In this document: positions 4,025 to 63,939 of the stretch, in pieces
Layout of the letters: the number at the start of each line of letters is the position of its first letter
Position numbering within the stretch: position 1 is the first letter of the stretch
Translations under genes and position numbers: made by a program
Source: Kappaphycus alvarezii
Lineage: Eukaryota; Rhodophyta; Florideophyceae; Gigartinales; Solieriaceae
Assembly: GCA_002205965.3 (NCBI GenBank)
Contig: NADL03000691.1
Location: forward strand, 248,001-312,000
DNA length: 64,000 nucleotides
Direction of reading: 5' to 3'
Notes under the pieces: model-generated
Database searches by the model: none
Told to the model about the DNA's origin: nothing
The model's input: only the letters and a program-made list of their open reading frames with translations

Positions 4025-4032
4025 TTTATATA
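4025..4032 (-). promoter_or_regulatory. TATA box of peptide gene A
   Basis: TATATAAA on the minus strand, 115 bp upstream of the ATG. The position is matched in the three paralogues. Confidence 0.65.
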
Positions 4033-7235: not shown

Positions 7236-7560
7236 GTATGAATGATTGTCAGAAGGATTGTTGTATGACTAAAACATTTCAGGGAGAAAAGGATTGCGAA
7301 GTTTAATATTGGGAAAGACGTGTCATTTCCTAACGGGGGGAAAATTTGGGAGGTTTAATGATTGAAAAATAGGTTAACCTATGATTCAAAACACATCAAA
7401 TAATTGGTACGAGTTGTCGGCATTTCCTAAAGTGACGACGCTGTTCCCTTAGGGATTAGGCGTAGTGGATGCTGGTTAATACCAAGTTTAAATGAGTTTG
7501 GTTTTCTGCAGATGGTGCAAAGGTTATAAGTCCCATGAACTTGGCATTCCCACGACTTAG

Positions 7561-7718
7561 GGGGGAACGTTTGGGTGTTTTACTCTTGGAAGATATATCC
7601 GATCTTTCCCATGGTTTTCCAGACAACCACAATTGACTCGAAAAGGGTATACCGCCACAGTAATGGGGAAGGAACTACGCTCCCTAAAATGCTACCTTCA
7701 GACCAGCCATCAAGCAGG
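7561..7718 (-). mobile_element. 5'-truncated LINE-A tail, 158 bp
   Basis: It carries the last codons and the 3' UTR of the LINE at 55.5-55.9 kb, reversed, ending in GGGGG at 7561. It is flanked by a perfect 10-bp duplication, CACGACTTAG, at 7551-7560 and 7719-7728. Arms B (near 24465) and C (near 58350) have the empty site, so it inserted after the A/B duplication. Confidence 0.85.
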
Positions 7719-8331: not shown

Positions 8332-9230
8332 TTAGTAGGATTACCAAACGGCCTAGCAAATAGCTACAGGACAAAAGAAACCAACCACTTTCCTAGCAAC
8401 AAACAACTTAGCAGTTTCCAACATCCCCCAGTTCTCAGGTCGCTAAAATCTCGCAGTAGCTACATAATATATGTTTCCACTTGATACTCTCCTTTGTTTG
8501 AAAACACCTGCTGCGAAACATATTTATAATTCAAATATTCAAATTTTCCTATTTTCCTTCCACTTGTTGCCCGTCATGAATTTCATATTCTTTTCTTCAG
8601 GTTTACTTTTCCTATCGACCCAAGTGCTGATTTCCCGGAGTCTGACTGTCATTCCACCCTCACTGGAGTCTGCCTGCATTCTTACCTGTACATATCAAAG
8701 AATCTGTAAGCAGCGATCTCAATGTGTAGTTCGTTCTCAGGGACCTCCTGTTCTGCCTTTATCTAACGATATAATGTCCCCATATGAATTCTTGATTGTT
8801 TCAATGATGTTTCTATTCTGCCAGAAAACAAGGTTTCAGACAACATCCAAAATGTTCATTCATGTTTGCCTCTACTCCGGGGTTTTCAAGAATAACCTTC
8901 TTGATGAAAAACCTGCTATATTTATAACCAAATAGTTTTTACTCTAAAGCATCACCTAGTCAGCCGAGAAGCACAAATAAGTAAACTGTTGGCGCTATCG
9001 ATTTAGTTTGATTGCAGTCCCTCAACGACCAGTTACTGCATCAGTGGTCTTCAAAAAATTTCCGTTGCTTCCTGTTAGATCTAAGCTTCTTGGGTGACTT
9101 GAAGAATTTCTCTCTATGCTTTAAACGTTACTTCTCCATAGATCGAATACATCTTCCAACAGTAAAGACACCTAAAACTATTCCCTTCTCCAAAACGAAC
9201 ACAATCAAAAAATTATTACCTTCAAAATAG

Positions 9231-9325: not shown

Positions 9326-9335
9326 ACTCAAAATA

Positions 9336-9411
9336 AGGGGAAACGTTTGAGTGTTTTACTCTTGGAAGGTATATCCGATCTATCCCATGGTTTTCCAGAC
9401 GACCATAATCG
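9336..9411 (-). mobile_element. 76-bp LINE-A tail, arm A only
   Basis: It is flanked by the 10-bp duplication ACTCAAAATA (9326-9335 and 9412-9421). The empty site is intact in arms B and C (GGTTCATTATTTTGAGTG). It is a recent 5'-truncated insertion beside an older one of the same family. Confidence 0.85.
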
Positions 9412-9489
9412 ACTCAAAATAATGAACCGCAAAATAGGAAAGGGGAAAATGGGGAAATGTTCACTGTGTCCGCTCGGTGGCCTGGGAAA

Positions 9490-9690
9490 TAAGCGAGTTT
9501 TTGAGGAAAGTGTCGTGTAACAAAGAAGATAGCGTGGTGGTAAATTTTTGCCAGTTGTACAGTATGGCACAGAAGCGTGCGGAGGGTATTAAGAAATTAA
9601 CTACGAATGCGGGCGGCGGGTGTAAAACTGTCGCGCCTGCATCACTTGGAGACTAAACGCAAAACCGATACCGAAGCTACGTCTTTACGC
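9490..9690 (+). repeat. Dispersed repeat with an AQKRAE reading frame
   Basis: A repeat of about 180 bp whose open phase reads roughly S-V-A-Q-K-R-A-E-D-I-Q-K-L followed by a Gly-rich stretch. Other copies lie at 13030-13090, 13200-13380 (inverted), 18600-18730, 22560-22690 (inverted), 41900-41960, 42415-42560 (inverted) and 55895-56040 (inverted). I do not recognise the family. Confidence 0.6.
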
Positions 9691-9999
9691 TATATAGAAC
9701 GATAAAACAGGGCGCCGTGCTATTGCAAAAGAAATGATATTGCCCTGGAAAAATGCTCCATGACTATATTCGCGACGGCTCCAGTCAACCCCGTGACCGC
9801 GAAAAAAGCTTCCAATGCTATCAGCTCAGAGTGGATATTGGAACGAGTAGGAATCTGGCCCTCTCGAGCAATGCGGAAATGAAACCTTGATACCTTCTGT
9901 GCTTATCTGGCAAGGAGGCTTCAAGACTAGTGAGGGGGTTGAAGTTTCAAATCCTGCAGTGGAAGGGGGCTAGAAGGTTGACGAACGGGGAAATTTTTG

Positions 10000-10160
10000 G
10001 GTGATTTTAATGTATGGAAGATGTGGTCGATTGTATCCATGCCGCTAGTGCGTTGACGAACGTGACGTCGAAATAGTCCGTACCACCTGTCGCTCCTGTT
10101 GCTTTTATGTTGGATATAACTTCCAAGAGTAAACACCAAAACCTTCCCCCGTTAGTGTCG
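10000..10160. mobile_element. LINE-B-type tails, older copies
   Basis: Two tail ends face each other here: GGGTGATTTTAATGTATGG near 10011 and the reverse form near 10118-10148. The arrangement is shared with arm B near 22025-22195, so both are older than the A/B duplication. Confidence 0.5.
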
Positions 10161-10768
10161 GGCCTTGTCCTGTGAAAATGAATATATATATATAAATATT
10201 ACATGAAAATATAAGAGTGACTTTTAGGACAAATTCTTGCGCATGGAGCGTAAAGAGCTTACAGTGTACTACACTTTTTTGTGAAGCTATACTCGCCATA
10301 CGAAAGTATCACCTTTAATGATCAATACTCAGGAGACCGCTAGCGCCATACAGCGCAGGGACTGGGACTACACAACAGGGGCAAAATCGGTGGTCTGGTC
10401 AAGACGCCGCCGATTAACGGACATAGCCATACCAAATCCTCCGGAAAATAGCGGACCACAATTTTCAAGCAGTAAAAGTAAAGCACTAGCTAGAAGCTTC
10501 TATGTACTTAACTGCACTATTCCCCTAGTCTTTAGAAAATAGCCATCCTGCATACTTAATTAGTAAATCACCCCAATCTTCCCCGCTATTCTAAAAAGTG
10601 GGTGAAAATGGGTGTTTTAATGATTGCAAAAATAAGCTTTGCGTATGTTTCAAAGGGGGGAATTGGGGTGCCTTACTGAATAGAGATGTAGGACGACAAT
10701 TTTCCGAAGAGTAGGTGGGACGGTCTGTGTATGTTCCAAAGTGCATCAAATAATGAACTACTTTCAAA

Positions 10769-10916
10769 GGTAGCATTTTAGGGACCGTAGTTCCTTCCCC
10801 ATTACGGTTTCGGCATACCCTTTTTGAGTCGATTGTGGTTGTCTGGAAAACCATGGGATAGATCGGATATACCTTCCAAGAGTAAAACACCCAAACGTTT
10901 CCCCCAAACGTTTCCC
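10769..10916 (+). mobile_element. LINE-A tail, 148 bp, arm A
   Basis: A plus-strand tail ending in two partial repeats of CCCAAACGTTTCCCC. It is flanked by the 8-bp duplication CTTTCAAA (10761-10768 and 10917-10924). Arm B near 21480 shows the corresponding empty site in inverted orientation. Confidence 0.8.
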
Positions 10917-11984
10917 CTTTCAAAATAAAAAAAAATCTGCTCGGGTATACAGTCGACTTTTGGTGTCTAAATGTTTCAATCTCACTTGTGCAGTGTTTTC
11001 TTCATTCTGCAACTTCTGTCGGGGGTATGGTATCTAGGGTAAAGGGGGAAGTTGGGGTGTTTTAATGATTGAAAAATAGGTTAGTCTAAGTTCCAAAGGG
11101 CATCAAATAATTGGTACAAGTGGTCGGCATGGGGGAACCAAGAAACGGTGGGGGATGATGGGGTAGTTTACTTTGTTGTCTAAAACTTCTAGCGGGGGAT
11201 CTAAACGGAGAACCAAGAAACAGAATTAATCCAGTTCAAGGTCCCTAGCTAGAAGGCTGGCTCGAGGCCAGTCTGGAGTAAATGGCAGTTCACACTGCGC
11301 GATCAAGGGAAACGTTTTTGTAAATACTTATTTTGCCGTCATAATACGACACTGTATTCCTTCCCAAAACGTACGGTATTCCTCCACGTCCGAAATTGTA
11401 CAGGAGGGAACACTTATGTAGGTTGCTTTACAGCTTACAGGCACTGACGGTTGCATCCCAAGAGGAAAGGGACACATACAGTACTGTACAGCAAAATACA
11501 ATATGTACGCATCTCTAATGAAGGGGAAAAAAGGGGGTTTCTTTATCGAGATGTATGGATTGGCTGGAACCCATTTTGAGTTGCAAATCTGCATGTCTCT
11601 AATGAGTAAAGCACCCAAAATTCCCTACTTTTTTCATCATGGTTACAATTAGGCGTTACTACCTGTTACCAACAAGGTCCTCATTCAGTACTTGTGACCG
11701 CCTGGGTGAGCATGAAGGGTTTGATAATTCAGTTGGTGGCCATCGCTAGGAAAAATTGCGAAACGTGCAGATTTTTTTGATAGCGTAGACAGTAGCCCTA
11801 AGTTTATCCGGAAGGCATCAGCTCCAAAAATGAGCCATAATTTTTAGTTTCGTACAGCGGAAACTGGCGAAAGCCAAAGCAATTATTGTGACAGATCACA
11901 TTGAGGCGCATAGAATTTATTTTATGGGTTCCTTATTGTATGGTTCAAGTTTTTGAACACCTTATAAGATTCTCCCCCATTGTA

Positions 11985-12105
11985 TTAAGTACAGTAAATG
12001 GGGGGTTAATTTACTGTGGTGGATAAGTGAGTTGGTATCCAGTAAATTTGTACCGGAGCGTAGATATCGTATCACGGCCAAGCCAATTCCGAAACCGTAC
12101 AATAA
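11985..12105. mobile_element. Tail of a further retroposon family
   Basis: Contains GGGGGGTTAATTTACTGTGG and ACCGGAGCGTAGATATCG. Related copies lie at 21300-21412 and 56461-56574. Arm B near 20325 lacks this copy. The target repeat is not clean by eye. Confidence 0.55.
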
Positions 12106-15599: not shown

Positions 15600-15964
15600 A
15601 CATTGCGTACTGAGGGTAATATTTGGATTACTTTAATGTATGGCAGATGCGGTCGATTGCATCTATACCGCTAGCGCGTGGATATATCACCGATGGGTAC
15701 GTTTGAGTGTTTCACTCTTGGAAGATTGCATACTTCCTCATTACTGTGTCGGAATGCCCTTTTGAGTCGATTACGGTTGTCTGGGCACATTGGGATGGAG
15801 TCGAATATATGTTCCCCGACAGGGTTCGGGGTGATTTACTGCGAATGGTGCAAATGTTATGAGTCCTAGGAAATTGCATTCGACCTTGTGGCAGGATCTG
15901 CAATACAAATAATGGAGCGTTTCCATTAACTGGAAAGCAGCTGATAGCTCAATCAACAAGCTGG

Positions 15965-16000: not shown

Positions 16001-16435
16001 CCCAAACCTCCCAACTTTATTGGACTAGTCTAGGTTTAACCTTAAATGTCTATAAGGAACATTCTCTCCGCGACGGAGAACGGTTATACATGCCAATAAA
16101 GATGTCCTCCCGTATGCAAACAAATTTCAATACGGAATACACCCCTCCTGGTTGCCTCTGGGAACGGAGAGTAAAACACCGAAAGTTCTTTCCTTTGATT
16201 AAAATCGTACGGATGTTAGTAGGACTAGCGAATTCGTAGAATACATGAGCTATCCGATTTACTCGGGAAATAAGTAGATAGTACGGAAGTGAAGATGGAT
16301 GCTACATTGTCCTCCGCGGGCGCGGCACTGACCACGGGTAGGACCGTGCGTGCTGCACGCCTTGGACTCCTTATGGATTCTTACTGACATACTTCCTTTC
16401 CCGCGATTTTCTTTCACCTTTAGAGTGGACCCTTG

Positions 16436-16606
16436 GGGTAGATCGGATATATCTTTCAAGAGTAAAGCACCCAAACCTTCCCCTTAGGGAGCGCAATTCC
16501 CCATATCACTGTACCGGAATTTACTTTGGGCAGTTTGCGGTTGTCTAGAAAACTTTAGGATAGATCGAACATATCTCTCAAGAGTAAAACACGCAAAACT
16601 TTCCGC
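16436..16606 (+). mobile_element. Two LINE-A tails in tandem
   Basis: A short tail (about 16436-16483) is followed by a longer one starting at AGGGAGCGCAATTCC (about 16486-16606). Both end in the shared tail motif. The second is diverged from the consensus. Confidence 0.65.
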
Positions 16607-19530: not shown

Positions 19531-19572
19531 AAGGGGGAGAGGTTTGAGTGTTTTACTCTTGGAAGATATATC
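19531..19572 (-). mobile_element. 42-bp LINE-tail micro-insertion
   Basis: It consists of little more than the shared tail (GGTTTGAGTGTTTTACTCTT, then GGAAGATATATC), flanked by the 7-bp duplication CTTAGAA at 19524-19530 and 19573-19579. Confidence 0.7.
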
Positions 19573-22500
19573 CTTAGAATAGTTATTGGTGTACTTTGAC
19601 TTTGTAAGGCTTAATGCGTTACCTAAATTTTCTACGCTGTCCTAAACAACGCTGCTTTGAAATGCCGGCAAAGTGGATGCATTATTTAGTTGTCCTTACT
19701 GCTCACAGTGCTATTCATTGTATGACCCATATTCATTGGCCAGTGACGACTAATTTGCTTTAAGAGTTCATGCTCGTAAGGATATAGACTCATCTACAGT
19801 GCAGATTCCATATAGACGTCTGGAACTATGTTATCAGAATGAATCTCTGGTTTAGTACCTTCTTGCTGTGGATTACATGTGCAGTTTACCGCACACCTGT
19901 AACAATGGTAAGCGTTTACAGTGCACTAGCTTTGAGCAAACACTTTCTGAAAAGCCCTGCATTGTCATAGAACTGGAATAGCTCTCAGCCAGCATACCTC
20001 TTACAGTTAATGAACCTCTCCTTTTCCCCATATGAAAATGCATGAACTTGGATATTCGCTGTAATATACTGGTGTGATGGAGTCTCACAAATCCTGCAAA
20101 CTCAAAAACACTTCAACTTGTTTGGCCTCCCTTCCACCTTCTGGTAGATTGGAGTGCCATCCACAGTTTTCGACGCATTAGGGTTTTTTTCAATTTCTCT
20201 CATCATGAGCGAGAGCTTCCTCTACTTTCAGCCCAGAAGTCTCCGAGTGAATCCCCCCCTATTTTCCCTCCTGCTTCCTGTGATCTCTTGACCGATTATA
20301 AATTAAATTAATATCAACAACTTAATCAATACAATGGGGGAGAATCTTATAATGTGTTCAAAACTTGAACCAAACAATAAGGACCTAAGAAGATAAATTC
20401 TCTATGCCGCCATGTGATCTGTCGCGACAATAGCTTTGGCTTTCGCCAGTTTCCGCTGTACGAATCTAAAAAGTATGGCTCAATGTTGGACCTGATGCCT
20501 TCCAGATAGACTTAGGGCTACTGTCTGCGCGATCAAAAAAATCTGTGCGTTCCGCAATTTTTCCTAGCGATGGCCACAACTGAATTGTCAAACCCTACAT
20601 GCTCACCCAGGCGGTCACAAGTACTGAATGAGGACCTTGTTGGTAACAGCTAGTAACGCCTAATTGTAACCATGATGAAAAAAGTAGGAATTTTGGGTGC
20701 TTTATTCATTAGAGATGCGTACATGTTGTATTTTACTGTACTGTACAGTACTGTATATCTCTTTCCTCTTGGGATGCAACTGTCAGTGCTGTAAGCTGTA
20801 AAGCAACCTACATAAGTGTTCCCTCCTTACAATTTCGGACGTGGAGGAATACCGTACATTTTGGGAAGAATACAGTGCGGTATTGTGACGGCAAAATAAG
20901 TATTTACAAAAACGTTTCCCTTGATCGCGCAGTGTGAACTGCGCGATGGATTAATTCTGTTTCTTGGTTCCCCGTTTAGATCCCCACGCTAGAAGTGGTA
21001 GACAACAAAGTAAACTACCCCATCATTCCCTCCTCCGTTTCTTGGTTCCCCACGCCGACCACATCTTCCATGCATTAAAATAACCCAAACCCCCCCCCGT
21101 GTACCAATTATTTGATGCACTTTGGAACATAGACTAACCTATTTTTCAATCATTAGAACACCCAATTTTCCCCCTTTACCGCAGATACCATACCCCGAAA
21201 GAAGTTGCAGAACGAGCAAAGCACTGTACAAGTGAGATTGAAACATGTAGACACGAAAAGTCGACTGTGTACCGAGCAGTATTTTTATTTTGAAAAGTGT
21301 AAATGGGGGTTAATTTACTGTAGTAGATATGTGGGTTGGTATCCAGCAAATTTGCACCGGAGCGTAGATATCGTATCATTGTCAAGCCAATTGTGAAACA
21401 CTACAATGTGTCGAAAACTGTGGATGGCACTCCAATCTACCAGAAGGTGGAAGGGAGGCCAGCCATTTGAAAGTGGTTCACTATTTAATGCATTGTGGAA
21501 CATACACAGACTTTCCAACCTACTCTTCGGAAAATAGCCGTCCGACATCTCTATTCAGTAAGGTACCCCAATTCCCCCTTTGAAACATACGCAAAGCTGA
21601 TTTTTGAAATCATTAAAACACCCATTTTCACCCCCTTTTTAGAATAGGGGGGAAGATTGGGGTGATTTACTAATTAAGTATGCAGGATGGCTACTTTCCG
21701 AAGAATAGGGGGATAGAGCAGTGTAGTACATAGAAGCTTCTAGCTAGTGTTTTACTTTTACTGCTTGAAAATTGTGGCGCAGCAATTTTCCGGAGGATTT
21801 GGTACGGGGGAAGTTTGGGGAGTTTTTAATGCATGAAAAATATGGTCAGCTGTTCCTGAGGGATGTCGTGATGGCATGGCGAATACAGCTTTATACACAA
21901 TTGTAGTACACTGTAAGCTCTTTACGTTCCATTCGCAAGAATTTGTTCTAAAAATCACTCTTATATTTGCATATTTATATTCATAATATGAATATTATTC
22001 AAATGACAAGGCCCGACACTAACGGGGGGAAGGTTTTGGTGTTACTCTTGGAAGTTATTTCCGACATAATAGCAACAAGAACAACAGGTGGCATGGACTA
22101 TTTAGACGTCACGTTCGTCAACGCACTAGCGGCATGAATACAACCGACCACATCTTCCACGCATTAAAATCACCCAAAAATTTCCCCGTTCGTCAACCTG
22201 CTAGTCCCTTTCCACAGCAGGATTTGAAACTTCAACCATTTCACTAGTCTTGAAGCCTCCATGCCAGATAAGCACAGAAGGTATCAAGGTTTCATTTTCG
22301 CATCGCTCGAGAGGGCCAGACTCCTACTCGTTGCAATATCCAATCCGAGCTGATGACATTAGAAGCTTTTCGCGGTCACGGGGCTGACTGGAGCTGTCGC
22401 GAATAGAGTCATGGAGCATTTCTCGAGGGTAAGATCATTTCTTTTGCAATAGCACGGCGCTCTGGTCTCCTCTAACACGCCCTGTTCCTTTCCATGTCTC

Positions 22501-22937
22501 CAATCATCGTTCTGTATAGCATAAAGACATAAATTTTTTACCCGTTTTGCGTTTAGTCTCCAAGTGATGCAGGCGCCACACTTTTACACCCGCCGCCCGC
22601 ATTCGTAGTTAATTTCTAAATAACATCCGCACGCCTCTGTGCCACACTGTACAACTCGCAATGATTTACCATCAAGCTATCTTCTTTGTTACAAGACACC
22701 TGCCTCAAAACTCACTTATTTCTCAGGCCTCCGAGCTCCCACAGTAAACATTCCCCCATTTCCCCTTTACTATTTTGCGGTTCATTATTTTGAGTGCCTG
22801 CATAACTTTTTGAGTCGATTGTGGTTGTCTGGAAAAATATGGGATCGATCGGATATATCTTCCCAAAGTAAAACATCCAAACCTTCCCCCTTATTTTGAA
22901 GTTATTAATTGTTTGGTTGTGTTCGTTTTGGAGAAGG

Positions 22938-22988
22938 TGGGGAAACGTTTGGGTGTTTTACTCTTGGAAGATATATCCGATCTATACA
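22938..22988 (-). mobile_element. 51-bp LINE-tail micro-insertion with 12-bp duplication
   Basis: It is flanked by TTTTGGAGAAGG at 22926-22937 and 22989-23000. Arm A (near 9190) and segment C (near 56250) both keep the empty site with a single TTTTGGAGAAGG. It contains GGGGAAACGTTTGGGTGTTT and the GATATATCC motif. Confidence 0.9.
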
Positions 22989-25507
22989 TTTTGGAGAAGG
23001 GGTAGTTTTGGGTGTCTTTACTGTTGGAACATATATTTGATCTATAGAGAAGTAGCTTTTAAAGCATAGAGAGAAATTCTTTAAGTTCCCCAAGTAGCTT
23101 AGATCTAACAGGAAGCAACGCAAAATTTTTGAAGACCACTGATGCAGTAACTGGCCGTTTGGGGACTACAATCCTACTAAATCCACAAGGCTAATAATTT
23201 ACTTATTTACGCTTCTTGGCTGACTAGGTAATCCTTTAGAGTAAAAACAGCCTGGATATAAATACAGTAGGTTCTTCATCAAGAAGATTATTTTGAAAAC
23301 CCCAGAGTAGAGGCAAACATGAATGAACATTTTTGGATGTTGTCTGAAACCTTGTTTTCTGGCAGAATAGAAACATCATTGAAACAATCAAGAATTCATA
23401 TGGGTACATTACGTCTTTAGATAAAGGCAGAACAGGAGGTCCCTGAAAACGAACTAAACATTGAGATCGCTGCTTAGAGATTCTTTGATACGTACAGGTA
23501 AAAAATTCAGGCAGACTCCAATGAGGGTGGAATGACAGTCAGACTCCGGGGAATCATCACTTGGGATGATAGGAAAAGTAAACCTGAATAAAAGAATATG
23601 AAATCCATGACGGGCAGCAGCTGGAAGGAAAATAGCAATATTTGAATATTTAAATTAAATATGTTTCGCAGCAGGTATTTTCAAAACAAAGGAGAGTATC
23701 AAATGGAGACATATATTATGTAGCTACTGTGAGATTTTAGCGGACTGAAAACTGGGGATGTCGTAAACTGGTAAGTTGTATGTTGTTACGAAAGTTGTTG
23801 GTTTCTTTTGTCCTATAGCTAATTACTAGGCGGTTTGGCAGTCCTACTAAGGGAGGAATTATTAGGTTATTTTAATGTATGGAAGCGTTTAGTATGCAAC
23901 AGGGGATAGCCGAACCGAACCTTTCAAATATTAAATAACCGAATCGAGTCACACACCATGTATGGAAGATGTGGTCGGTTGTCTCCACGCCGCTAGTGCG
24001 TTGTGCGGGGAAAGTCGAAACTGAGGGGTAACACTAAATAAAATTCCTTACTAAGCAGTTTTAGGTCAAGGTCACACACGAATTTAGAATACGAGAAAGG
24101 CTGTTGAGCGGGCGGATATTTCGCGACGGTTTTATTTAGTGGGCGAATTTCCATTCAAGCAAACTTTTCTAAAAGCTGAGAAACTCTAGCGTTTCACTGT
24201 AACTGATATGCTGTTTAAAACCCAAACAACTTATAATACACGGCTACTTGTATATACTTGGAATTTTATGACAGAATAGCTCCCTTTTTAAAATAACTCA
24301 GAGGGGAGACCATCAAGTGAAGAAAACGTATTGCAGGTCAAAAAGCTAAATTAAAATCCAAACTCCGTTTAGATTACCGCCGCTAGAAGTGTCAGACGAC
24401 AAAGTAACTACCCCATAAATTTACTCTCATGGACGATCATCCCCCGCCCCCAAATTACAACAGAGATACTTTATTAAGTCGTTTGAATGCACGTTAATGG
24501 GACTTACAATCTTTGGAACATTTGCAGCAAAGCAAACTCATTTAAACTCGGTATTAAACGGCATCCACTACGCCTAATTCCTAAGGGAACAGTTGCTGTC
24601 ACTTTAGGAAATGACACATCTTTCTATATTAAACTACGCAATTATTTTCTCCCTGAAATGTTCTAGTCATACAGCCCTCCTTTTGACACTCACTCATACA
24701 CTTACCTTTCTGACGCCTTTCATACGTACAATTGCCGAAGTACCGCAATTAGTGTACTTGTAAATCACTTGCAACTAGAAATGACCTACTTCCTAAATAT
24801 TACATTACCTAAACTGTCCCCCTTGCAAACTGCGTGTCAAGTTTGCCAGTACAACCACATACAACTAGACTCATGTGCAATAATCGCCTATATTGAGTAA
24901 AGAACTTTTTTCACTAATATTTCTGTTTATTGTTTGTAGTTAATTGCATATCTAGCGGGGGAATGTGGGCTGCTTTAATAATTGAGAGATATGGTCAGTT
25001 GTGGCTCGAAATATCTTCAGCGGTGCAGAAACCGACACCCGGAATGAGAGGTACTATCGATCATCATCTTCCCCAGGCCCCACAATAACCAGGCCCCAAA
25101 TGCTTGATAATTTCCTTTCATCACTCTTTCTGCGCACCTCAATTCTGCCCCACTATATTATTGTTCACATCAAGAATATCCTTATCTGAACTGCTGCCAA
25201 TCTTAATGCTTTGGATTGATTCCCATCTCGATAGTCATGCGACCCTAAATAAATCAAAGATGACATTGCACTTTGTCCTATCTGTGGTGGTGGTGGTAGA
25301 TCTTTATTTGTAATGAAGTCTTCAGTGCTCTTAGTGAGAAAGCCTCGGTATTCTTCCAATCACGCTATTTTCGTTGCTGTCAGTTGCAGATATTCACCCG
25401 GGGGAAGTTTTGGGTGTTTTTACTGTTGCAAGATAAATTCGATCTATCCCTCCCTGCATTGAAGTTTTTGCCGCCCTTATCCTATACACTAGGTTTTCTG
25501 CCTATGA

Positions 25508-25549
25508 TCGAATATATCTTCCAACAGTAAAAACACCCAAAAATTCCAC
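25508..25549 (+). mobile_element. 42-bp LINE-tail micro-insertion (arm B)
   Basis: It is flanked by the perfect 14-bp repeat TTTTCTGCCTATGA at 25494-25507 and 25550-25563. Counterparts in A (5643-5684) and C (near 60990-61030) have decayed repeats. Confidence 0.8.
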
Positions 25550-25655
25550 TTTTCTGCCTATGACAGGTATACAAAGGTGAGCCGGTTCTCGCCAGTGACC
25601 TCTGGTTTACTTTAATTTAACTATTTTCTGCTCATTCCTCGCGATTAAATTACTG

Positions 25656-25694
25656 GGAAAGTCTTGGGTGTTTTTACTGTTGGAAGATATATTC
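25656..25694 (-). mobile_element. 39-bp LINE-tail micro-insertion (arm B)
   Basis: It is flanked by the perfect 13-bp repeat GATTAAATTACTG at 25643-25655 and 25695-25707. It also occurs in A (near 5500-5550, inverted) and in C (near 61130-61180), where the repeats have diverged. Confidence 0.8.
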
Positions 25695-26470
25695 GATTAA
25701 ATTACTGTGTCTTGTGTCAGCTTCGTGAAACATCTACCACGATTATCAAAGCAAACCTGTGAATTCCGCTCTGCCAACGTTACACATATAAATAGAAGGG
25801 GTCGATTTGGTTCTTTAATATTTTGAAAGGTACGGTTGGGCTATCCCCCAGTGTATGCTACACGTATTCAAGACCCGTATTCAGGATAAATGATTGAGGT
25901 TTCGAAAAAGCCCACCGTAACTTCACGCTGGCATTTTGGGATACTACCTCGAGAGATAGGTTCCTGCACTGGACCATCGATATTAATGCAAAAAGTTTCA
26001 CTGAATATCGCACACATCCTGTACTGTACATATGACATTGTACCCGACTAGAAACATGGATTTATATCATATTGAGACTGACAGTCTGAAATATGCAGCA
26101 TAGTTTTGTGCAGTGAGCCCCATTTCTTAGAAGTAACAACGGGAGGTCTTTTACAGTAACAATGAAGCTGGCTGATGCCCAATCAGCTTGTATGGTATTG
26201 AACTCTTTTATTTGGGTTATTAAAGGGAGCTGCATGTAACGAAGCTTGGCATGTATTTCCGTTGCATGTACGAATCGCATGAGCTCTGGTAGTTACGCTT
26301 GTACTGGAATTAAGTTCCTCTTCTCGCTCACTTGCATATGCATTCTGTGAGAGGTCAAGAACACTCCTGTTTAGAATAAATCTTATGAAAACCCTAATCG
26401 ATATTTGTCCTCCTCCTCGTTAGTTTGGTGTACTTATTCGCGGTCTCTACGTCGCCACTTGAGATACACC

Positions 26471-26920
26471 TTATAAGCAGTGAAATTTCATTCCTAGTAC
26501 ATACTTTTCGACAATACCAATTGCGGCATGATTCCAAATTATTAACTGAATTTGCTGTATGTTGGAGTAGAAATCGAAGAACAGATCATTGCGTGTTCGA
26601 AACGAAGTCCGCAGCTTGGAGATACGAGCATATCTGTGGTTTTTCGCTCTGTCGATCAAAGAACACTTCGGAGTCTGCAGAAACTCGTAGTCTTTGGCTG
26701 CTGTACGAGGTGTATACTGTCGCAAGGTTCGGCTTTGTTCTATGCGTTGCCGCCAAGTACAAACTTCTCTAGCGCCAAGATAGATTCTCATTGCAACGTT
26801 AACAATTGTGATTCTCGATAACAAATGAAGGTATAGACAAAAAACTAAGGGACATGCGCAGATACATTGAAGAAAGGAAATTGTGTTCACCGTTTCGTCC
26901 CGATTCAACAGGGGCCCCAT
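26471..26920 (-). other. 149-codon open frame upstream of peptide gene B, probably non-coding
   Basis: This is the arm B counterpart of 4281-4730. It has no recognised domain, and the frame is not kept in segment C. Confidence 0.15.
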
Positions 26921-27169
26921 TCTTCCCCACGCAACCTAAACCATTTTACAATAACAGCTATGCTTTCATGGTTGTACTAAAAGTCTAAAGAATCACTCCA
27001 CCTTTCCGGTCATTTCTCGACCACATTTCTATAATTCTAGAAACCTCATTACCTCCACCAAACTAGGTCTCAAAACATTCCGAAACTTTCAAACCTCACC
27101 ACGCCCGGGTTTCCCAATCAAGACTACTCAGCCGCCGCTACAGGAGACTCGGATAGACCCAACCTCATG

Positions 27170-27178
27170 TATATAAAT
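27170..27178 (+). promoter_or_regulatory. TATA box of peptide gene B
   Basis: TATATAAAT, 122 bp upstream of the ATG. A GGGTTTCCC motif lies at 27107-27115, with a related motif at the matching place in C and, with one change, in A. It resembles a Rel-type site only loosely. Confidence 0.65.
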
Positions 27179-27291
27179 CCAACCGAGGCGCTCCTTCCGT
27201 ACTGTCTTTGCAATAACTACCCAATACTTCCAAACAACTTACCAACAACTTAAGAGCTGCTACACCTTCCAAAGCCATCGAAACCGCAAAA

Positions 27292-27546
27292 ATGGTTAAG
27301 TCAACCTTCATCTTTGCCCTCACCCTTTTCGTTTTCGCCACCTTCGCTGTCGCCCTCATTCCAGAAGAAAACCTTGACGAGGCTTACCGTCAGACTAGGA
27401 TCTTTCGTGGCCCATGTGGAGGCGCCGGTCGCGCCTCCAGGATGTGTCGCGAGATGGGAACCCCTACTTTCAGCTGCCAAGTTGTTGGCTGTCAACGCGG
27501 AAATCGTCGTCGCAGCTTCCGTTGCACATGCCGTCCTGTGATGTAA
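27292..27546 (+). CDS. Secreted cationic six-cysteine peptide, copy B
   Basis: 84 codons in one exon. The signal peptide is identical to copy A. The pro-segment reads PEENLDEAYRQTR and is followed by IFRGPCGGAGRASRMC and the rest of the six-cysteine, Arg-rich domain ending RCTCRPVM. The stop is followed at once by a 3' flank shared with A and C. There is no upstream in-frame Met here, which supports the MVKS start in all copies. Relative to copy C there are 16 amino-acid differences, nearly all after the signal peptide, against only about five silent differences by hand count. Function (antimicrobial) is inferred. Confidence 0.85.
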   Translation: MVKSTFIFALTLFVFATFAVALIPEENLDEAYRQTRIFRGPCGGAGRASRMCREMGTPTFSCQVVGCQRGNRRRSFRCTCRPVM

Positions 27547-28404
27547 GAGGCTCACCGACCTTTGAAGCTGTACCCAAGTAGGTGCATCAACGGCATGGAA
27601 AACATTTTCTTCTACCTGTTGCGTGGAGTAGGACAGAATTAGAGACACACAAAATTGCCTGGCGTGGTCTTTTGATGACTTTCCTTCCTCCTCTTCCACT
27701 AGATGTCGTAAATGATCTCGCGAAAGCTCAGAATTTGAGTTTACTTTGCACTTTATGTTGTTCTTTCTGCTACCACCTAGCATACGCTAGTTAGCGGAAA
27801 TTAGCATGCATCCTTACTGGAGGACCTTGGAGCGCTGAAACCGTGGCGATTTAAAGTGGATAGGTGGGGGATATTGGCTAGAAGTTGCTTGACTTTCGGA
27901 ACAGAATTATACAAAACACAGGTTCCAGGAGTGCAGCTCCCTCTCTATGCAATATCCCCTCCTGATACTGAAATCGCCACTGTTTGGATTGCAATATTTG
28001 CTTATGTTTGGCGCTCAATTGAAAAACATTACAAAGGACTTCTTTCAATTGTTCTTCCCTTTGTTCTGAAACCCGTTTTACGTTTCTAAAAGGATTATCG
28101 CATCCAGTCTGCTTTCGAATACCTCTCCCGCTGTTATCAAATTTCTTCTGTAGCTTATCCAATTAACGATATCATCCATCTACCTCTTGCCTCTCTGCCT
28201 GCTCTCTTTTCGACATTTGTGGGTTGTCAAAGAATCTTCTATCTCCTAACTACAGTGCTAAGAGGTATAATTTCTTATAGAAAAACATTCGGTCATCTCT
28301 TTATAGCTCTCACAGCTAGTTGGTCGAGGAAATCATAAATTTTCACTCAATCAGGCGCATTTCCAAAATGATTATCGTTGGCGATTTTCACATACCGTCC
28401 CAAA

Positions 28405-28890
28405 ATTCAACTTTTCAGACGATTGCGGAGAGAAGGGCGAGGACGAAGGAGACTGGCCTTTAGAAATCTCAGAGGATCCGTCAAAGAACCGCTCCGTGAG
28501 GGACTTTTGTTCGCAATACTTGGTGGCTTAAGGTCGGATTCTCACTCGGCTCTGTCTGTTTCTCAAAGAGACAGGCCCATAGTGAACTTCCATACAGTAC
28601 CGGACACCCCGCGCCCGCCATCTAGTGGCGGTAAGCCCCAATCTTCCACCTGGTTGAGCTGCTTACTAAACAACACCCAAAGGGTCTATGGGCAGTCGCC
28701 TTTGCGCGAAAGTGCGGTTATTAAGGCCACAGAGAAGTACATTAACCTGTCTGTGGTGGATCCTACAGAGCGGAACATCTCCTGGTGCCTCCTCGATTGA
28801 CGGACTGATCTCATCTCAACTCTTTAGAAAGCGACGAGGTCGATGATGCCATTTCCGATCTGGAGGAGTTAGTGTCTATTAGACCATTGT
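28405..28890 (+). mobile_element. Internally deleted copy of the ORF-bearing retroposon (arm B)
   Basis: It begins at CAGACGATTGCGGAGAG, as 54547 does, and jumps after GAGGATCC to the CTCCGTGAGGGACTTTTGTT stretch, giving the same deletion as arm A. It keeps a frame of 140 codons (28378-28800) and breaks off near 28890 without its 3' tail. Confidence 0.6.
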
Positions 28891-29379: not shown

Positions 29380-31190
29380 GTACTCGAAGGTTTGGGCGCT
29401 CCTTAACCGTCTTCGTCGGCATCGGATGAGAATTCCGATGATTCCACGGCGCATCAATCAGATGCACCTGTTTTTTCTCATGGACGATCACGGACCAATC
29501 AGGAGGTTTTCAAACCTATTCACGAAAATGTATCTGAGAAAAGCTGCAAAATAAATTGGCTACTCTGGTAATATTCCCTTGTATGGTTGTGATCCTCGAG
29601 ATTTATCGCCATTTGAATGCTTTATGAGCATGTTTCGTGTCTGTTACCTAACTTTTATGCGTGACGTTACAAATGGTCGATTGAATGCCATTGTAAATCA
29701 TCCCATCTCATCAGGAGGGATATTGAAGTTCTTTGGGATTCTCATGCTCATGAAAAGGTTTTCATTTTCAAACTGCCGCGATCTCTGGAGTGAATCTGGT
29801 TCGAAGTTTATTTCAGCACCGAGCTTTAGAAAGATCATGTCACGTATAAGGTTTGAGCTGATTCTCGTAAACATTTGCTTCAGTCACACTTCTGAACGGG
29901 AGGAAAGGTTTTTGGATAAATCGAAATGGTCTTTAGTAAGTGGGTTTTTGAAGGCTATCAATGACCACCGCAGGCAATAGGTCACGCCATTCTCTCATAT
30001 CTGCGTCTATGAAAGTATTAGCAGATGGCACGGTCTCGGGGGAGATTGGATCAAAAAGGACTTCCACATTACGGTGCCTACGATAAAATGCTCCAAATAA
30101 CTGCGAATTGAAGGCTTCTGCATGTGGCCAAAGTGGAAAAATGTTGAGAGTAGAGCTCGTGATAGTAAAAACAGGTGGCCTTCGGCGTGACTTCACAGAG
30201 CAATTCTGTCACACCACCGCACTTACCCTTCGTCTTGTTCAACCCTGGCTGTAGACATTTCGCTATTTATGTGGGGATTAATGTTTTGCATCGGTTTCAA
30301 CTGCGGAAGCCTTGATGAGATATGGAACGAGATTGATTGGTGTGGTCAAGAATGCGGTTCAGAAATTTCCAATGCAATGCATGTCACCACAGGAGCTCAC
30401 GGAGGGCGTATATCATATTCCGATGGTTTCGAAGAATCCTGACAACAATAAATCTCTAATGGCTGGGTTTTGGATGGATAGAGAACGGAAATATTTCGTC
30501 AGCAGTTGCCATAAAACCAATCAGGGACCCCGATGTTGTAGGGAAAGACGGAGAACTGTGAATGGCGAGACAAGGAAAGTGGAACTCGAGATTGCAGTTC
30601 CAGATGTTGTGGAGAGGTACTACGACACGTTTTCTTAAGTCTGCAGTCACAGCAGATGTAGGCAAGATACCCTTGGAACTGAGAAGAAATTGGAAGTAAA
30701 ATATTGCTCCAAAAGGGTCAATTCCTCTCTCTTGTAGATCATAACTTTTGATTCATTTTTACTATATAAGCATTCTTTTTGTCCAGGACTCTTCTTATCA
30801 TAATCCAAGTTTTATGAGATGCTTGCCGAAGAACCCATTGAGAACACGTTTGATTTGAGATCACGTAGGACATCTAAGTGATTACAAAATGAGGATGACA
30901 ACGATATGTTGGACCCTTTTCAGGGATTGGAACTCATCCTGCTGTAAGTAAGAAGAAGAGGAAATTGAGTAATGGTGAGTATACTAACGCATCTTACCAA
31001 GGTCGCTGTCGAGTTTTTAAGGTCTGCAAGTTAAAATTTCTTCTTGTAATTGCCGTGACAGCGGCCTTGATGATGTTTATATCTGTCACGCGAGCACAAA
31101 AAGGTGTCACTTCTTGGACTACGTGCCCGAGAGAAATCATATAGATCTAAAAAATGATTCCAAGTCGGTATAAAGTAGTGTGGCTTTTTG
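29380..31190 (+). pseudogene. piggyBac-type transposase, broken
   Basis: Two well-preserved pieces of a piggyBac transposase are visible. The first, 29579-29980, contains PFECFMSMF, YLTFMRDVTN, ILKFFGILMLMKRF and FRKIMSRIRFELI. The second, 30312-30638, contains TRLIGVVKNAVQKFPMQCMS, MAGFWMDRERKYFVSSC and the VELEIAVPDVVERYYD end. Between them a plus-strand stretch still shows the SISRWHGLGGDWIKKDF-like catalytic region, out of frame and with stops. A cysteine-rich C-terminal tail (ICHASTKRCHFLDYV) can be read near 31080-31150. At least three frame or stop lesions mean it is dead. I could not identify its TTAA-flanked terminal repeats. It truncates arm B at about 28.89 kb. Confidence 0.85.
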
Positions 31191-31540: not shown

Positions 31541-32296
31541 TTGCATCTTCAATACCCCACAACCGCTACGGTGGTGTCCTCGGCCCACTGGCAGACCATG
31601 CTCCGCCGGCACCTAGGCCTCCCCGTATACGACGACTCCCGCCCGCTCACTTGTGCCCGCTGCAATCAAACTTTGGACGCACTCGGGGACCACGCGGCTG
31701 ACCTCTGCCCTGCCGGCTTCGGTCGCTCGCACCGCCACAACTCGCTGCGCAACGTTTTCGCCTACCACGTTGCTCGCGCCTCGGGCCTAGACTGCCAATA
31801 CGAAGTCCCGCTCCTTGTCCCGGGAACGAATATCCGCCCTGTGGACATTCTCATACAACCCCCCCCCTGCCCACTTCCCAACAGGTCCACCCATAGCCTG
31901 CGACCTAACCATTGTCTCACCGTTCAAGGTGTGCGCACAAGGGCCACCCAAATGGCCGGCGGCGCCGCCGACATTGCCCACCGAGACAAAGTCACAGACC
32001 TGGAGCGCAAACTGGTACGCCGCATCCCGCCCCCTTCGCACAACACCCTCCAGGAACCGAATTTCAAGTTTCAGCCCTTGGCTTTCGAATCCTTGGGTGC
32101 CCCATCCCCCGCCTCTATCCTGTTCATCGAAGACTTCATCCCGCACATCGCAGAGAAGTTCAACACAACCACAGCAGTGATCCGCAGACGTATTTATCAG
32201 CGCATTAGTTGCACACTGTGGTCTTCTATTGCAATGGCGATTATATGGCGAGCCCCACTGCACGTGCCTGACGTGGAACATCCGGTTAGTTCTTAG
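31541..32296 (+). pseudogene. LINE fragment: restriction-like endonuclease domain
   Basis: The open frame shows the C-terminal domain typical of REL-endonuclease LINE proteins: C-x2-C (CARC), LGDHAADLC, then SHRHNSLRN, and the DIL that follows IRPV in place of the usual RPD. Near the middle the family-typical CDLTIVSPF lies in another frame, so the copy is broken there. It is GC-richer than its surroundings, suggesting a different source lineage from the LINE at 49.6 kb, with which it shares little beyond the motif skeleton. No reverse transcriptase part is seen upstream. Confidence 0.65.
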
Positions 32297-32760: not shown

Positions 32761-32794
32761 GTTTGCAAGAAATGATAGGAAAACTTTATGGGCC

Positions 32795-33194
32795 AGCAAG
32801 CCCTAGTGGGACGCTAACCAAACCAAGTCGCACACAGCACAGGCAGCAAGCCGTAGTGGAACGCTTATCAAACCATGCCACACACAACATAGGCAGCAAG
32901 CCGCAGTGGGACGCTCACATAACTAAATCACACACAGCACAGGCAGAAAGCCGTAGTGAGACACCCACCATAACAGGTCACACACAACATAAACATGAAG
33001 CCGTAGTGAGACGCTCACCAAACCAAATCACACACAACACAGGCAGCAAGCCGTAGTGGAACGCTTATCAAACCATGCCACACACAACATAGGCAGCAAG
33101 CCGTAGTGGGACGCTCACATAACTAAATCACACACAGCACAGGCAGAAAGCCGTAGTGGGACGGCCACTAAACTAATTCAAACTTCACACAGAG
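32795..33194. repeat. 50-bp minisatellite, eight units
   Basis: Units of exactly 50 bp start at 32795, 32845, 32895, 32945, 32995, 33045, 33095 and 33145, each with AAGCC-TAGTG-GACGC and a CACACA-CA core. Units 2-4 and 6-8 are nearly identical, giving a 200-bp higher-order period. The 105-codon open frame across it is a by-product of the repeat. Confidence 0.95.
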
Positions 33195-49559: not shown

Positions 49560-52500
49560 AGAAACCGCCCCAGTGCCAGTGCCAGATTCACCTCCACCAC
49601 AGCACCCCGCCCGGCGCTGTCCTCAAGCTCCCCCCCCCACCGCCCATCCTGTACCGCCAACGCAGCGCTCCGAAACCCACGCACAGCCCCTGCCGACCCC
49701 GGAGCAAATATTCCCGACGCACAAGCCAGTCATGGCACACATTCCCACCAAGTTCCGTGGTTGTCTGGCTTAGACCTATGCAACCGCCATGCAGGACGCT
49801 GCACAAGCCTGCCAGTGCGGCAGCCCGTCCGCAACTGCCGCCGTCATCAAGCTGTTCTTGTTTCCGGCCGTCATGTTGACCAACATCTCCTACACAGAGC
49901 GGGGCACTGAAGAACGACGACACCACTCCATCGCTGATACAATGAGGGAACGGATCGAGCTTGGGAACGCAGGGCTGTTGCAGACGTTGTGGGAACAGGC
50001 AGTGAAACCCAACACCCGCGCAACGCACGCTCCATCACGCACCGAGCAGAAAATGCTGAATGTGCGCCGAGCCACCAAGCTGGCCACGGAAGGGGCATAT
50101 GGCAAGCGGCACACGCCTTAAGCTCCCTAGGGGTCCTTCCTCCAACTCCTGACGTCGTTCAGGCACTCCTCAACAAACACCCCCAACAGCCAGAGACCGT
50201 CCCCAGTGGAACACGGGAACATACTTCATGTGCTAATGCGGCCTCAGTTCGGGACTTCAGTGAGGAGGAGGTTCTTGGAGCCGTCAGGGGTTTCAAACCG
50301 GAATCTTCTGGGGGAGGGCCCGGTCTTAGACCGAACCGTATCGCGGAACTGCTCAGGTGTCCGTCTTCATCGGGCCCATCAGGTTTCCTACCAGCGCTCA
50401 TGCGTATCGTTAACATTCTGGCCTCCGGACGTGCCCCAGTCGCTCTCTCCCCTTGAATATCTGGTGCGCCCCTCACCCCGTTGGCCAAGAAGGACGGGAC
50501 TCCCCGACCCATCGCCGTTGGCGAAACGCTTTGTAGATTGGTCGGCGGCTGCTTGATGAAACGAGCTACGAGAAAGGCTGCCAACTATCTCCAACCGCTG
50601 CAACTGGGCATCGACACAAGGGCCGGCACCGACACCATCGTCCACAGTGTCCGTAGGGTTGTCGACAAGTTTGGGACTAGCTCTGACTACGCTATGCTCA
50701 CAGTAGACCTCAAAAACGCTTTTAACTTGTGCAACAGAACCGCTTTTCTGGACGCCGTCAAACGCCTATTCCCCGAATTGCTGCCGTGGGTCTCGTACTG
50801 TTTCGCAAACAAGCCAGCGTACTTGTGGTCAGGCCCGCACATCATTCGCAGCATGAGAGGTACACAGCAAGGGGACAACCTCGGTGGACTTCTATTTGAC
50901 CTTGTCCTTCACCCCGTCGTACTTAAGATCCAGGAGCCACTACGATCAGGTAACCAGGAAGACGACACCGTGGGTAACTTGCTGCTCCAGCTATGGTACC
51001 ATGATGATGGGTACATCATCGCGCACCACGACCAAATCGCCCGCGCCGTCGAAATACTCTCATCCATCGACGCCACCAGCAAGGGACTACACCTATCCCT
51101 GCCTAAATGCAGGGTCTGGTGGCCTACAGCGCCGCCGGCGTCCGTTCAACGCTTATACCCGAAGGAGCTGAAGCAAGAATATAGCGAGGGTACACGTGTC
51201 CTAAACGCCCCCGTCGGTTCCCCGGACTGGACGAACAAATTCTTCACCACTCACGTCCAGTCCCTCGAACCGTTCCTCGAAGCTGTCATAGACATTAACA
51301 ATACGCAGGTGGCTTTTCAGCTTTTGCGCAATTGCTTTGGGGTATACAAGATAGGATACCTCCTTCGTGTGGTGCCACCCTCTTGCACGGCGGAGGGCGC
51401 CGTTATGTTTGACTCCATGATAAAGCGATGTCTCCGGACACTCGCCGGAGGAGTACTGGACTCGGATATATTCCGAGAACTCCAACTACCGGTGAAACCC
51501 AAGGACCCTAAGAAACCCACCCTCGGTTTAGGGTTCACATCGGCGAAAAGCATCGCGGGGGCCGCTTTCCTGGCCTCCTGCGCAGCTGCCAACAGGCTGG
51601 CCACTGGTGTCTTGCCGGCACCCATCACGGATCTCACGACGTACAATGATGCCGTCTGCGCCCACCGAATATGGTCGACCCTCTGCCTGCCCTCACGACT
51701 CCTACCCTTTATTGTATTTTGCTCAAGCAAAACACCTCCGCAAAAGACACTAACAGAAGCAGTCCATGCGGCAGTTCAAGAAGAGATCCCTCTCGGCGAC
51801 CAACGAAGGCAAGCTTTCCGGGCTTCTATGGGCCTTCCCGGCGCAAAGGAATGGTCTATTGTCCTCCGTGTCCCGGCCTCAAGGCCAACATTGACGCCCG
51901 TGAGTTCTCAGTGTGGCTCCAGTACTACCTCCAGGTCCCGATCTTCGCCCCAGACACGCCGTGCCCACGCCCAAACTGCCCTGAGGTCCTCGACTGCCAC
52001 GGGGATCACCTCATGCACAGCCTGCATGGTGGGCACCGCACCCGACGACACGACCGTCAAGTCGTCCTCCTCGCCCAAGACCTGCAGAAGGCAGCCCGTC
52101 ATCCGGCTATCGAGCGGCGACAGGGGCTTCACCGCACAAGGCCGGATATAGAGGCAATGGGTAGCAACGGAGGAACGGACTTTTTTGACGTCACGTTCGT
52201 CAATCCTCTTGCGCCCTCCAATAGGAGAGCGCGCACTTTCAACCCACTCACCTCCCTCAACGCAACCATCTCCGCCAAACGTAGAAGGTATGAACCACTG
52301 CTCGCGACTGCTACTAGAGGGAGGCTTGTGCCTATCTCAATATCCACCCTCGGAGGCTGGCACCCAGACGCGTACGCGGTGCTAACCAATGTCGCGCGGA
52401 ACGTGGCCGTTCGAGCGATGGAGACCTATGGGATGGTTAGAGCGGTGCTTACTCAAAGGCACGCTGCCGCGGCCGTCATGTCCAACGCGGCATGCCTGCT

Positions 52501-52651
52501 CGCCGGCATTGAGCCGGCCTTGTAAGCAAGGTCATTTACTGTAGTGTTACCCATCAGCGAGGACTTATCCCCCATAACGTATTAGCCTCGTGGATATAAC
52601 CGACCACATCTTCCATGCATTAAAAAAACCCAAAAATTCCCCCCGTTGTAG
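49560..52651 (+). mobile_element. LINE-B: non-LTR retrotransposon, near complete but broken
   Basis: It consists of a Pro-rich N-terminal part (about 49560-49770), a reverse transcriptase, a C-terminal restriction-like endonuclease domain ending at 52525, and a 3' UTR of about 125 bp. The UTR ends with GACCACATCTTCCATGCATT, an AACCC run and a C-rich terminus, with no poly(A). Endonuclease of this type and lack of poly(A) fit the early-branching REL-endonuclease LINEs (the R2, CRE, NeSL, HERO and Utopia groupings); I cannot choose a clade. The G+C content is clearly higher than in neighbouring DNA. The UTR recurs as truncated tails elsewhere in the window. Confidence 0.85.
49989..52525 (+). 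pseudogene. LINE-B reverse transcriptase / endonuclease ORF, broken
   Basis: The reverse transcriptase motifs in order are GGGPGLRPNRI, KKDGTPRPIAVGE, AMLTVDLKNAFNLCNR (motif A), MRGTQQGDNLGGLLFD (motif B), LWYHDDGYI (motif C, Y-H-D-D) and GLHLSLPKC (motif D). The endonuclease part (frame 51671-52525) has CPRPNC, CHGDHLMH, HDRQ, RTRPDIEAMG followed by FFDVTFVNPL, and STLGGWHPDA. Visible lesions are a stop near 49772, a frame change near 50110, a stop at 50454-50456 and a frame change near 51850, so this copy is inactive, though most of the protein is well preserved. The longest intact frame is 50481-52151. Confidence 0.85.
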
Positions 52652-52667: not shown

Positions 52668-52708
52668 GGGGAATTTTTGGGTTATTTTAATGCATGGAAG
52701 ATGTGGTC
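52668..52708 (-). mobile_element. 41-bp LINE-tail micro-insertion beside the LINE-B end
   Basis: It consists only of the LINE-B type tail (GGGGAATTTTTGGGTTATTT, then AATGCATGGAAGATGTGGTC), flanked by the 8-bp duplication GGTGATAT at 52660-52667 and 52709-52716. With the adjacent LINE-B end it forms an inverted pair. Confidence 0.85.
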
Positions 52709-56990: not shown

Positions 56991-57294
56991 GGGGAACGTT
57001 TGGGTGTTTTACTCTTGAAAGATATATCCGATCTATCCCATGGTTTTCCAGACAACCACAATCGACTAAAAAAGGGTATACCGTCACAGTAATGGGGAAG
57101 GAACTACGCTCCCTAAAGTGCAACCTTCAGGCCAGCCATCAAGCAGGTCGCATTGGACATGACGGCTGCTGCAGCATGCTTTTGCATCAAAACCCCCCGA
57201 ACCTTTCCGTACGTCTCCAGTGCCCTCACAGCCAAGTTCCTTGCCACGTCATTTAGCACTGCAAATGCATCCGGGTGCCAACCTCCAAGAGTGG
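56991..57294 (-). mobile_element. 304-bp LINE-A copy, 5'-truncated
   Basis: It contains the antisense of the last 55 or so codons of the LINE-A endonuclease domain plus the whole 3' UTR. It is flanked by the 8-bp duplication AGAAAAAG (56983-56990 and 57295-57302). Arm B near 23565 is empty. Confidence 0.9.
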
Positions 57295-58036: not shown

Positions 58037-58073
58037 ATATATCTTCCTAGAGTAAAACACCCAAATGTTCCCC
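58037..58073 (+). mobile_element. 37-bp LINE-tail micro-insertion
   Basis: It is flanked by CTCAGAGGGG (58027-58036 and 58074-58083). The empty site is in arm B near 24297. The insert holds nothing beyond the terminal tail. Confidence 0.9.
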
Positions 58074-58186: not shown

Positions 58187-58304
58187 GGGGAAACGTTTGG
58201 GTGTTTTACTCTTGAAGATATATATGATCTATCCCATGGTTCTCCAGACAACCACAATCGATTCAAAAAGGATATCTCCACACAATAATGGGGAAGGAAC
58301 TACG
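58187..58304 (-). mobile_element. 118-bp LINE-A tail
   Basis: It is flanked by AAGTAAAC (58179-58186 and 58305-58312), possibly extending to 11 bp. The empty site is in arm B near 24400. Confidence 0.85.
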
Positions 58305-63829: not shown

Positions 63830-63939
63830 CTTCCCCATTACTGTGTCGGTATACCCTTTTTGAGTCGATTGTGGTTGTCTAGAAAACCATGGGATAGATC
63901 TGATATATCTTCCAACAGTAAAACACCCAAACGTTCCCC
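63830..63939 (+). mobile_element. 110-bp LINE-A tail downstream of peptide gene C
   Basis: It is flanked by the 8-bp duplication TGTTGTTC (63822-63829 and 63940-63947). Arm B (near 27755) and arm A (near 3445, inverted) have the empty site. Confidence 0.9.

Follow-up and report, generated by a model that had tools for sequence, protein, structure and literature searches.

Much of the 64,000-nucleotide stretch of DNA analysed here (the window) is occupied by three paralogous segments of about 9 kb each, one of them inverted, inside which many LINE tails are nested. Alignment between the segments places them at 2331-12000 (S1, about 2.3-12 kb, reversed), 20328-28872 (S2, about 20.3-28.9 kb) and 54926-63833 (S3, about 54.9-64 kb), and their mutual alignment rows show approximately 75-92% identity. 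A small cysteine-rich ORF with a hydrophobic, signal-like stretch is kept in two of the paralogous segments (3656-4135, minus strand, and 63134-63613, plus strand); the copy at 3656-4135 has no Pfam match at E 0.01. Fragments of DDE_Tnp_1_7, which we take to be a piggyBac-type transposase, lie at 29555-29980 (E 1.6e-14) and 30282-30638 (E 8e-4, below the curated cut-off), and a 50-bp unit is repeated in tandem, in 7.4 copies, at 32794-33163. Rfam at the gathering score and ARAGORN returned nothing across the window.

LINE tail families and their source elements

At 50481..52645, on the plus strand, lies a LINE that consists of a reverse transcriptase, a C-terminal ORF, a 3' UTR and a C-rich end, here called the C tail. 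The reverse transcriptase was recognized in the ORF 50481-52151 (RVT_1, E 1.1e-9); among solved structures in the PDB it comes closest to R2 proteins (E 3e-4). Within the C-terminal ORF a Cys/His-rich stretch is accompanied by an RPD...D pattern, and both are presumably marks of a restriction-like endonuclease (RLE); this region found no sequence match in the PDB and its structure model has a pLDDT of 34. This C LINE likely represents the class of source element. A second, different LINE-like C-terminal ORF, also with a Cys/His-rich stretch, is found at 53327-54337 and is weakly similar to 31541-32296 (E 5e-5). Neither the tail pattern nor the LINE protein detected relatives among viral contigs, and the LINE protein detected none among the genome contigs searched.

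Three related tails, whose majority forms were read by eye, recur in the window: A is GATCGGATATATCTTCCAAGAGTAAAACACCCAAACGTTTCCCC, B is similar, with AACAGTAAAAACACCCAAAA, and C is GACCACATCTTCCATGCATTAAAATAACCCAAAAATTCCCC. Tails with the general end AGTAAA-CACCC-TTCCCC occur at 17 further places, against a shuffled expectation of 0.2; as judged by eye they fall into five or more families, and D to G are names coined for this analysis. The reverse transcriptase was found directly for C, and A is linked to it through its ORF end: the 304-bp A copy extends into an ORF end matching the C LINE, and two A-LINE ORF ends share 72 and 75% identity with that of the C LINE. A previous reading of the sequence alone had considered the tail to be a shared LINE 3' terminus. 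This stands for A and C, whose tails end reverse transcriptase-encoding LINEs or a LINE ORF; family B, of which no ORF-bearing copy was seen in the window, is a putative LINE.

Several tails adjoin other LINE sequence. At 16431-16605 a 49-nt A tail immediately precedes a truncated A copy of 123 nt, which could reflect template jumping by the reverse transcriptase. Tails of about 26-37 nt adjoin oppositely oriented LINE sequence at 22027-22064 with 22063-22485, and at 15694-15813; these may be 5' inversions (twin priming) or separate insertions. Three B tails with alternating orientations occur within 300 bp at 25400-25700, an arrangement common to S1, S2 and S3; for the B tail at 25402, no duplication was detected.

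Bare tails between target duplications

Ultra-short LINE-tail insertions with target duplications are confirmed in this window. The sequence-only reading had named six of them, as bare LINE 3' tails between direct repeats of 7-14 bp, and on direct reading of the sequence both the positions and the exact repeats were recovered at all six. With the C-rich end placed at the right, every insert corresponds to the final 36-51 nt of tail A, B or C. The A tail is inserted at 19531..19572 (minus strand, 39-42 bp, duplication CTTAGAA, 7 bp exact or 10 bp with one mismatch), at 22938..22988 (minus strand, 51 bp, 12-bp duplication) and at 58037..58073 (plus strand, 36-37 bp, 10-11 bp duplication). The B tail is inserted at 25508..25549 (plus strand, 42 bp, 14-bp duplication) and at 25656..25694 (minus strand, 38-39 bp, 13-14 bp duplication), and the C tail at 52668..52708 (minus strand, 40-41 bp, 8-9 bp duplication), just beyond the 3' end of the C LINE. 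The promoter-bearing 5' body that is the hallmark of a SINE is missing, the six insertions holding the tail alone.

When 4 nt of slack is allowed at each end, the longest exact flanking repeats are 7 bp (19531), 12 bp (22938), 14 bp (25508), 14 bp (25656), 9 bp (52668) and 11 bp (58037). Length-matched controls, namely 6000 random intervals of 37-51 bp drawn from this window under identical slack, contain a repeat of at least 7 bp in 68 cases (1.1%), of at least 9 bp in 23 (0.38%) and of at least 11 bp in 13 (0.22%); within the window, exact repeats of 7-14 bp at six of six sites are thus set against at most 1.1% of the controls. A repeat score of at least 9 is likewise reached, within 160 bp upstream, by 10 of 27 unique tail loci, five of the six originally named insertions among them, compared with 2.7% of 1589 displaced controls; this set excludes sister copies of one insertion and the tail matches at 2143, 11044, 16165 and 23854. 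The duplication of 19531 is the weakest among the six, since its score of 7 in the looser scan is reached by 19% of 1500 random positions.

The repeat scans revealed further insertions beyond those named at the outset: one in the micro size range and several of 50-97 bp. The former is a B tail at 9139..9184 (plus strand, 46 bp, duplication CTTCTCCA), with sisters near 23000-23045 and 56256-56303. Tails of families D to G are found at 7334..7420 (D, minus strand, 87 bp, 10-bp duplication), 20974..21036 (E, plus strand, 63 bp, 15-bp duplication, sister at 11147-11209), 11522..11595 (F, minus strand, 74 bp, 10-bp duplication) and 21652..21701 (G, minus strand, 50 bp, 11-bp duplication). A 64-bp C tail at 22123..22186 (plus strand, duplication CGTTCGTCAAC, sister at 9988-10051) lies within a decayed LINE ORF. 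The A copies cover a wide range of lengths: 75 bp at 9337..9411 (minus strand, 11-bp duplication), 97 bp at 22794..22890 (plus strand, duplication TTATTTTGA, sisters in S1 and S3), 106 bp at 63834..63939 (plus strand, 12-bp duplication with one mismatch), 115 bp at 58187..58301 (minus strand, 11-bp duplication), 148 bp at 10769..10916 (plus strand, duplication CTTTCAAA), 158 bp at 7561..7718 (minus strand, 10-bp duplication) and 304 bp at 56991..57294 (minus strand, 8-bp duplication), the last including the end of the LINE ORF. Two tail insertions that are missing from sister segments, at 21062-21097 and 56667-56718, have no detected duplication; the former is a C tail (plus strand, 36 bp, missing from S1) whose 5'-edge 8 nt, CCGACCAC, are common to target and element.

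The paralogous segments provide direct views of unoccupied targets. As claimed from the sequence alone, 22938-22988 faces empty sites in S1 and S3, as a 62-bp gap (the 51-bp insert plus the repeat), and 58037-58073 faces empty sites in S1 and S2, as a 47-bp gap. A manual count gave 15 distinct clean gaps between segments (15-400 bp, each of the two flanks exceeding 0.6 identity), and eight of these contain a LINE-like C-rich tail: A at 22938 (51 bp), 58037 (37 bp), 9337 (75 bp; S2 and S3 empty) and 56991 (304 bp; S1 and S2 empty), D at 7334 (87 bp; S2 and S3 empty), F at 11522 (74 bp; S2 empty), C at 21062 (36 bp) and another tail at 56667 (52 bp). A repeat of 8-12 bp accompanies six of these insertions and is lacking at 21062 and 56667. 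The other seven gaps (37, 26, 121, 323, 282, 47 and 18 bp) were given no such tail; the 121-bp gap has a 7-bp repeat and the 323-bp gap a 5-bp repeat. Poor alignment kept the A copies at 7561 and 58187 out of the count. The gap analysis therefore upholds the two empty-site proofs claimed originally and adds one for each of four more duplication-flanked insertions (7334, 9337, 11522 and 56991). Within the window no empty site is available for 25508 and 25656, which are occupied in S1, S2 and S3, nor for 19531 and 52668, which lie outside the segments.

These sites bear on whether the short copies might instead be terminal inverted repeats, or remnants of a cut-and-paste or MITE-like element, as the opposite orientation of some close tails (25402/25508/25656; 22837/22938) could suggest. 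Duplications and empty sites, however, bound single tails and not a pair of inverted termini, one end is fixed while the other varies, and the longer A copies continue into the LINE ORF rather than into a second tail. Since the same tail ends reverse transcriptase-encoding elements, and since the empty sites refute inverted termini outright for 22938 and 58037, we reject this explanation, to which we give almost no credence; repeats, empty sites and source elements all uphold retroposition. It is also very improbable that longer LINE copies were later shortened by internal deletion, or that old fragments were joined by deletion between short repeats. The divergence of the paralogous segments would have left time for deletions, but these would have had to recur and to end each time at the 5' duplication, and both sisters of 22938 and of 58037 show an empty target, not a longer copy.

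Junctions, lengths and a probable mechanism

The 5' junctions were compared for the 16 of 19 duplication-flanked insertions that have a reference copy (10769, F and G being left out). The target and the element overlap at the 5' junction by 2.4 nt on average, versus 0.68 (sd 0.24) in random pairings (n = 16), and by at least 3 nt at nine of 16 junctions, for which the null is 4.8% (binomial P about 1e-8). The overlaps per event are 1, 0, 3, 3, 3, 0, 8, 1, 3, 3, 3, 2, 4, 1, 3 and 0; three junctions thus have none, and the references for 22794, 22123 and 20974 fit at just 13 of 20 nt.

The target is T-rich: a T occupies position 2 in 13 of 19 targets, and position 4 in as many (P = 3e-4 each), as counted after removal of C's that could not be assigned, a step which biases position 1, and with four of the 19 rows being two nested pairs that share their targets and are not independent. 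Many members of the R2-like clade are specific for rDNA or another repeat. The 19 insertions described here are dispersed and show the T-rich preference only, with no target specificity for rDNA or any other repeat. In both nested pairs the later insertion starts at the same base as the older one, within the limits set by the C's: 22938 begins at the 3' duplication (CTTCTCCA) of an older B copy next to it and shares its start, and 9337 begins at, and lies inside, the 5' duplication (TTATTTTGA) of a pre-existing A copy of the 22794 type. In Drosophila, tandem arrays of R1 are thought to arise by insertion into the 5' TSD of an older R1 (PMC2718515).

Microhomology at the 5' junctions would also be expected if LINE RNA or cDNA had been captured at random breaks during end joining, with no part for the LINE endonuclease, and the two duplication-free insertions (21062 and 56667) could be such events. 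As a general account this is improbable, given that the duplications of 7-15 bp, the fixed 3' end, the common T-rich target and the re-used sites all point to a nick that chooses its site.

The 19 unique duplication-flanked insertions measure 36, 38, 39, 40, 42, 46, 50, 51, 63, 64, 74, 75, 87, 97, 106, 115, 148, 158 and 304 bp, with a median of 64 bp and eight at or below 51 bp. The list was put together by hand from repeat scans extending 160 or 330 bp upstream and a looser one extending 2500 bp, and long copies are under-counted because of this limited reach; the C LINE, for comparison, has a length of at least 2.1 kb. A small number of these 19 insertions may be false, since four duplications are only 7-8 bp long (19531, 9139, 10769 and 56991) and since, in the scan that yielded the duplications of the D to G tails, chance alone should produce about 17 repeats of 10 bp and 3.6 of 11 bp; the repeats of D (7334) and F (11522) coincide with the edges of sister gaps. 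A window-wide search with A-C-type patterns of 16-24 nt found no tail fragment below 35 bp with a convincing repeat: outside the known tails it gave 12 weak places (about one expected by shuffling), the best with a repeat score of 7, and seven of the 12 overlap other tail families.

Insertions of only 37-51 bp, as claimed earlier, do exist. They need not be a class apart: together with the longer copies they make up one continuous range of lengths, 36-304 bp, and occupy its lower end. The crowding of eight of the 19 lengths at 36-51 bp and the lack of any below about 35 bp nevertheless count against plain random stopping; the pile-up and the lower edge near 35 bp are suggestive, not proven. 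A tail of about 36-50 nt might then be a discrete product, either because the enzyme stops at a preferred place and commits after a fixed minimal tract, or because a short processed tail RNA serves as the template, the bare tail being a minimal element of its own. Six of the eight short insertions fall within 36-46 bp, three of the four unique B loci measure 38-46 bp, and the search for shorter fragments came back without a convincing duplication. We nonetheless consider a discrete product unlikely: the numbers are small, the A copies range over 36-304 bp, the 5' ends vary among loci and tend to track target microhomology, and the tail has no stable fold. Four tail sequences fold no better than their shuffles (z 0.1 to 1.5), so that pausing caused by RNA folding finds no support and was rejected.

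The micro-copies are best explained by target-primed reverse transcription (TPRT) of non-LTR retrotransposons (LINEs), with a 5' truncation so extreme that only the tail is left, a reading to which we assign a probability of about 0.87. Retroposition of LINE 3' ends, already proposed by the sequence-only reading, is supported by a C-rich 3' end that is fixed, 5' truncation that varies, target duplications that vary over 7-15 bp and exceed the controls, empty sites, 5' microhomology and the T-rich target. The enzyme would nick one strand at a T-rich site, and the nicked end would prime copying of the C-rich 3' end of the RNA; in micro-copies, synthesis would halt after about 36-51 nt. The second strand would then be cut 7-15 bp away, and the short cDNA would pair with the target by 0-8 nt and be joined, so that target duplications end up on both sides of a bare tail. 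The length would accordingly be set by the short cDNA and not by a later deletion or a short RNA. TPRT with an early stop and annealing-assisted 5' joining has been proposed for R2 (PMC2718515) and considered for L1 (PMC2912911) and ZfL2-2 (PMC2666801). The micro-copies have the features of such a process: a 3' end that is fixed, a duplication that is short and staggered, microhomology on the 5' side, a T-rich target and re-use of a site.

The truncation known from LINEs can extend to almost nothing. If micro-insertions are as common elsewhere as here (eight of 19 at or below 51 bp in 64 kb), LINE insertions far outnumber those counted, and each of them plants a tail of 36-51 bp together with a target duplication. 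Should the lower edge near 35 nt be real, it would gauge the cDNA needed before the second-strand steps succeed. If the tail were a discrete product after all, it would rank with the smallest conceivable retroposing units, as a 'tail-only' element common to several LINE families that could seed very many sites in a genome.

Comparison with known LINE systems

SINEs that borrow the 3' tail of a LINE comprise several different bodies with one LINE-like 3' end. Unlike these, the micro-copies described here have neither a body nor a fixed 5' end, and A is itself a LINE. L1 has a poly(A) tail and an APE-type endonuclease. In a survey of human and chimpanzee L1, 5'-truncated copies are described as the commonest form and microhomology-mediated joining is discussed (PMC2912911); TPRT, direct repeats, 5'-truncated copies and microhomology at the joining point are common to that system and the present one. 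The survey admitted only insertions of 50 bp to 10 kb, a floor that excludes most of the present micro-class (PMC2912911). A preprint comparing canine assemblies describes severely 5'-truncated LINE-1 insertions with TSDs, and dropped loci that were below 50 bp or had fewer than 30 bases of insert beyond the TSD (PMC12458276); these filters would lose part of the micro-class and keep part. Much of the short end of the LINE length distribution is thus omitted by design under cut-offs of 50 bp (PMC2912911, PMC12458276). No title or abstract opening among the matches listed from the open literature names LINE insertions of 37-51 bp, an absence that may be partly by design, since these surveys cut at 50 bp.

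In the experimental ZfL2-2 system in DT40 cells, host end-joining proteins act in 5' joining and favour truncated copies (PMC2666801). Its marker cassette sits in the 3' UTR, so ultra-short copies would probably be unrecoverable there. Parallels are also found in Drosophila R1 and R2, in which 5' truncation is accompanied by microhomologies of 1-5 nt; the TSDs of R1 are 14 bp in the 28S gene and 3-14 bp elsewhere, and a later R1 enters the 5' TSD of an older one (PMC2718515). Truncation with 5' microhomology, variable TSDs and insertion into an older 5' TSD are all found here too. In contrast to R1 and R2 as described there, no rDNA target is seen in the window, the tail ends in C's, and eight of the 19 duplication-flanked copies are no longer than 51 bp. 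The kind of event is therefore already known from the truncation of R1, R2 and L1; what is unusual here is the extent of the truncation and its local frequency.
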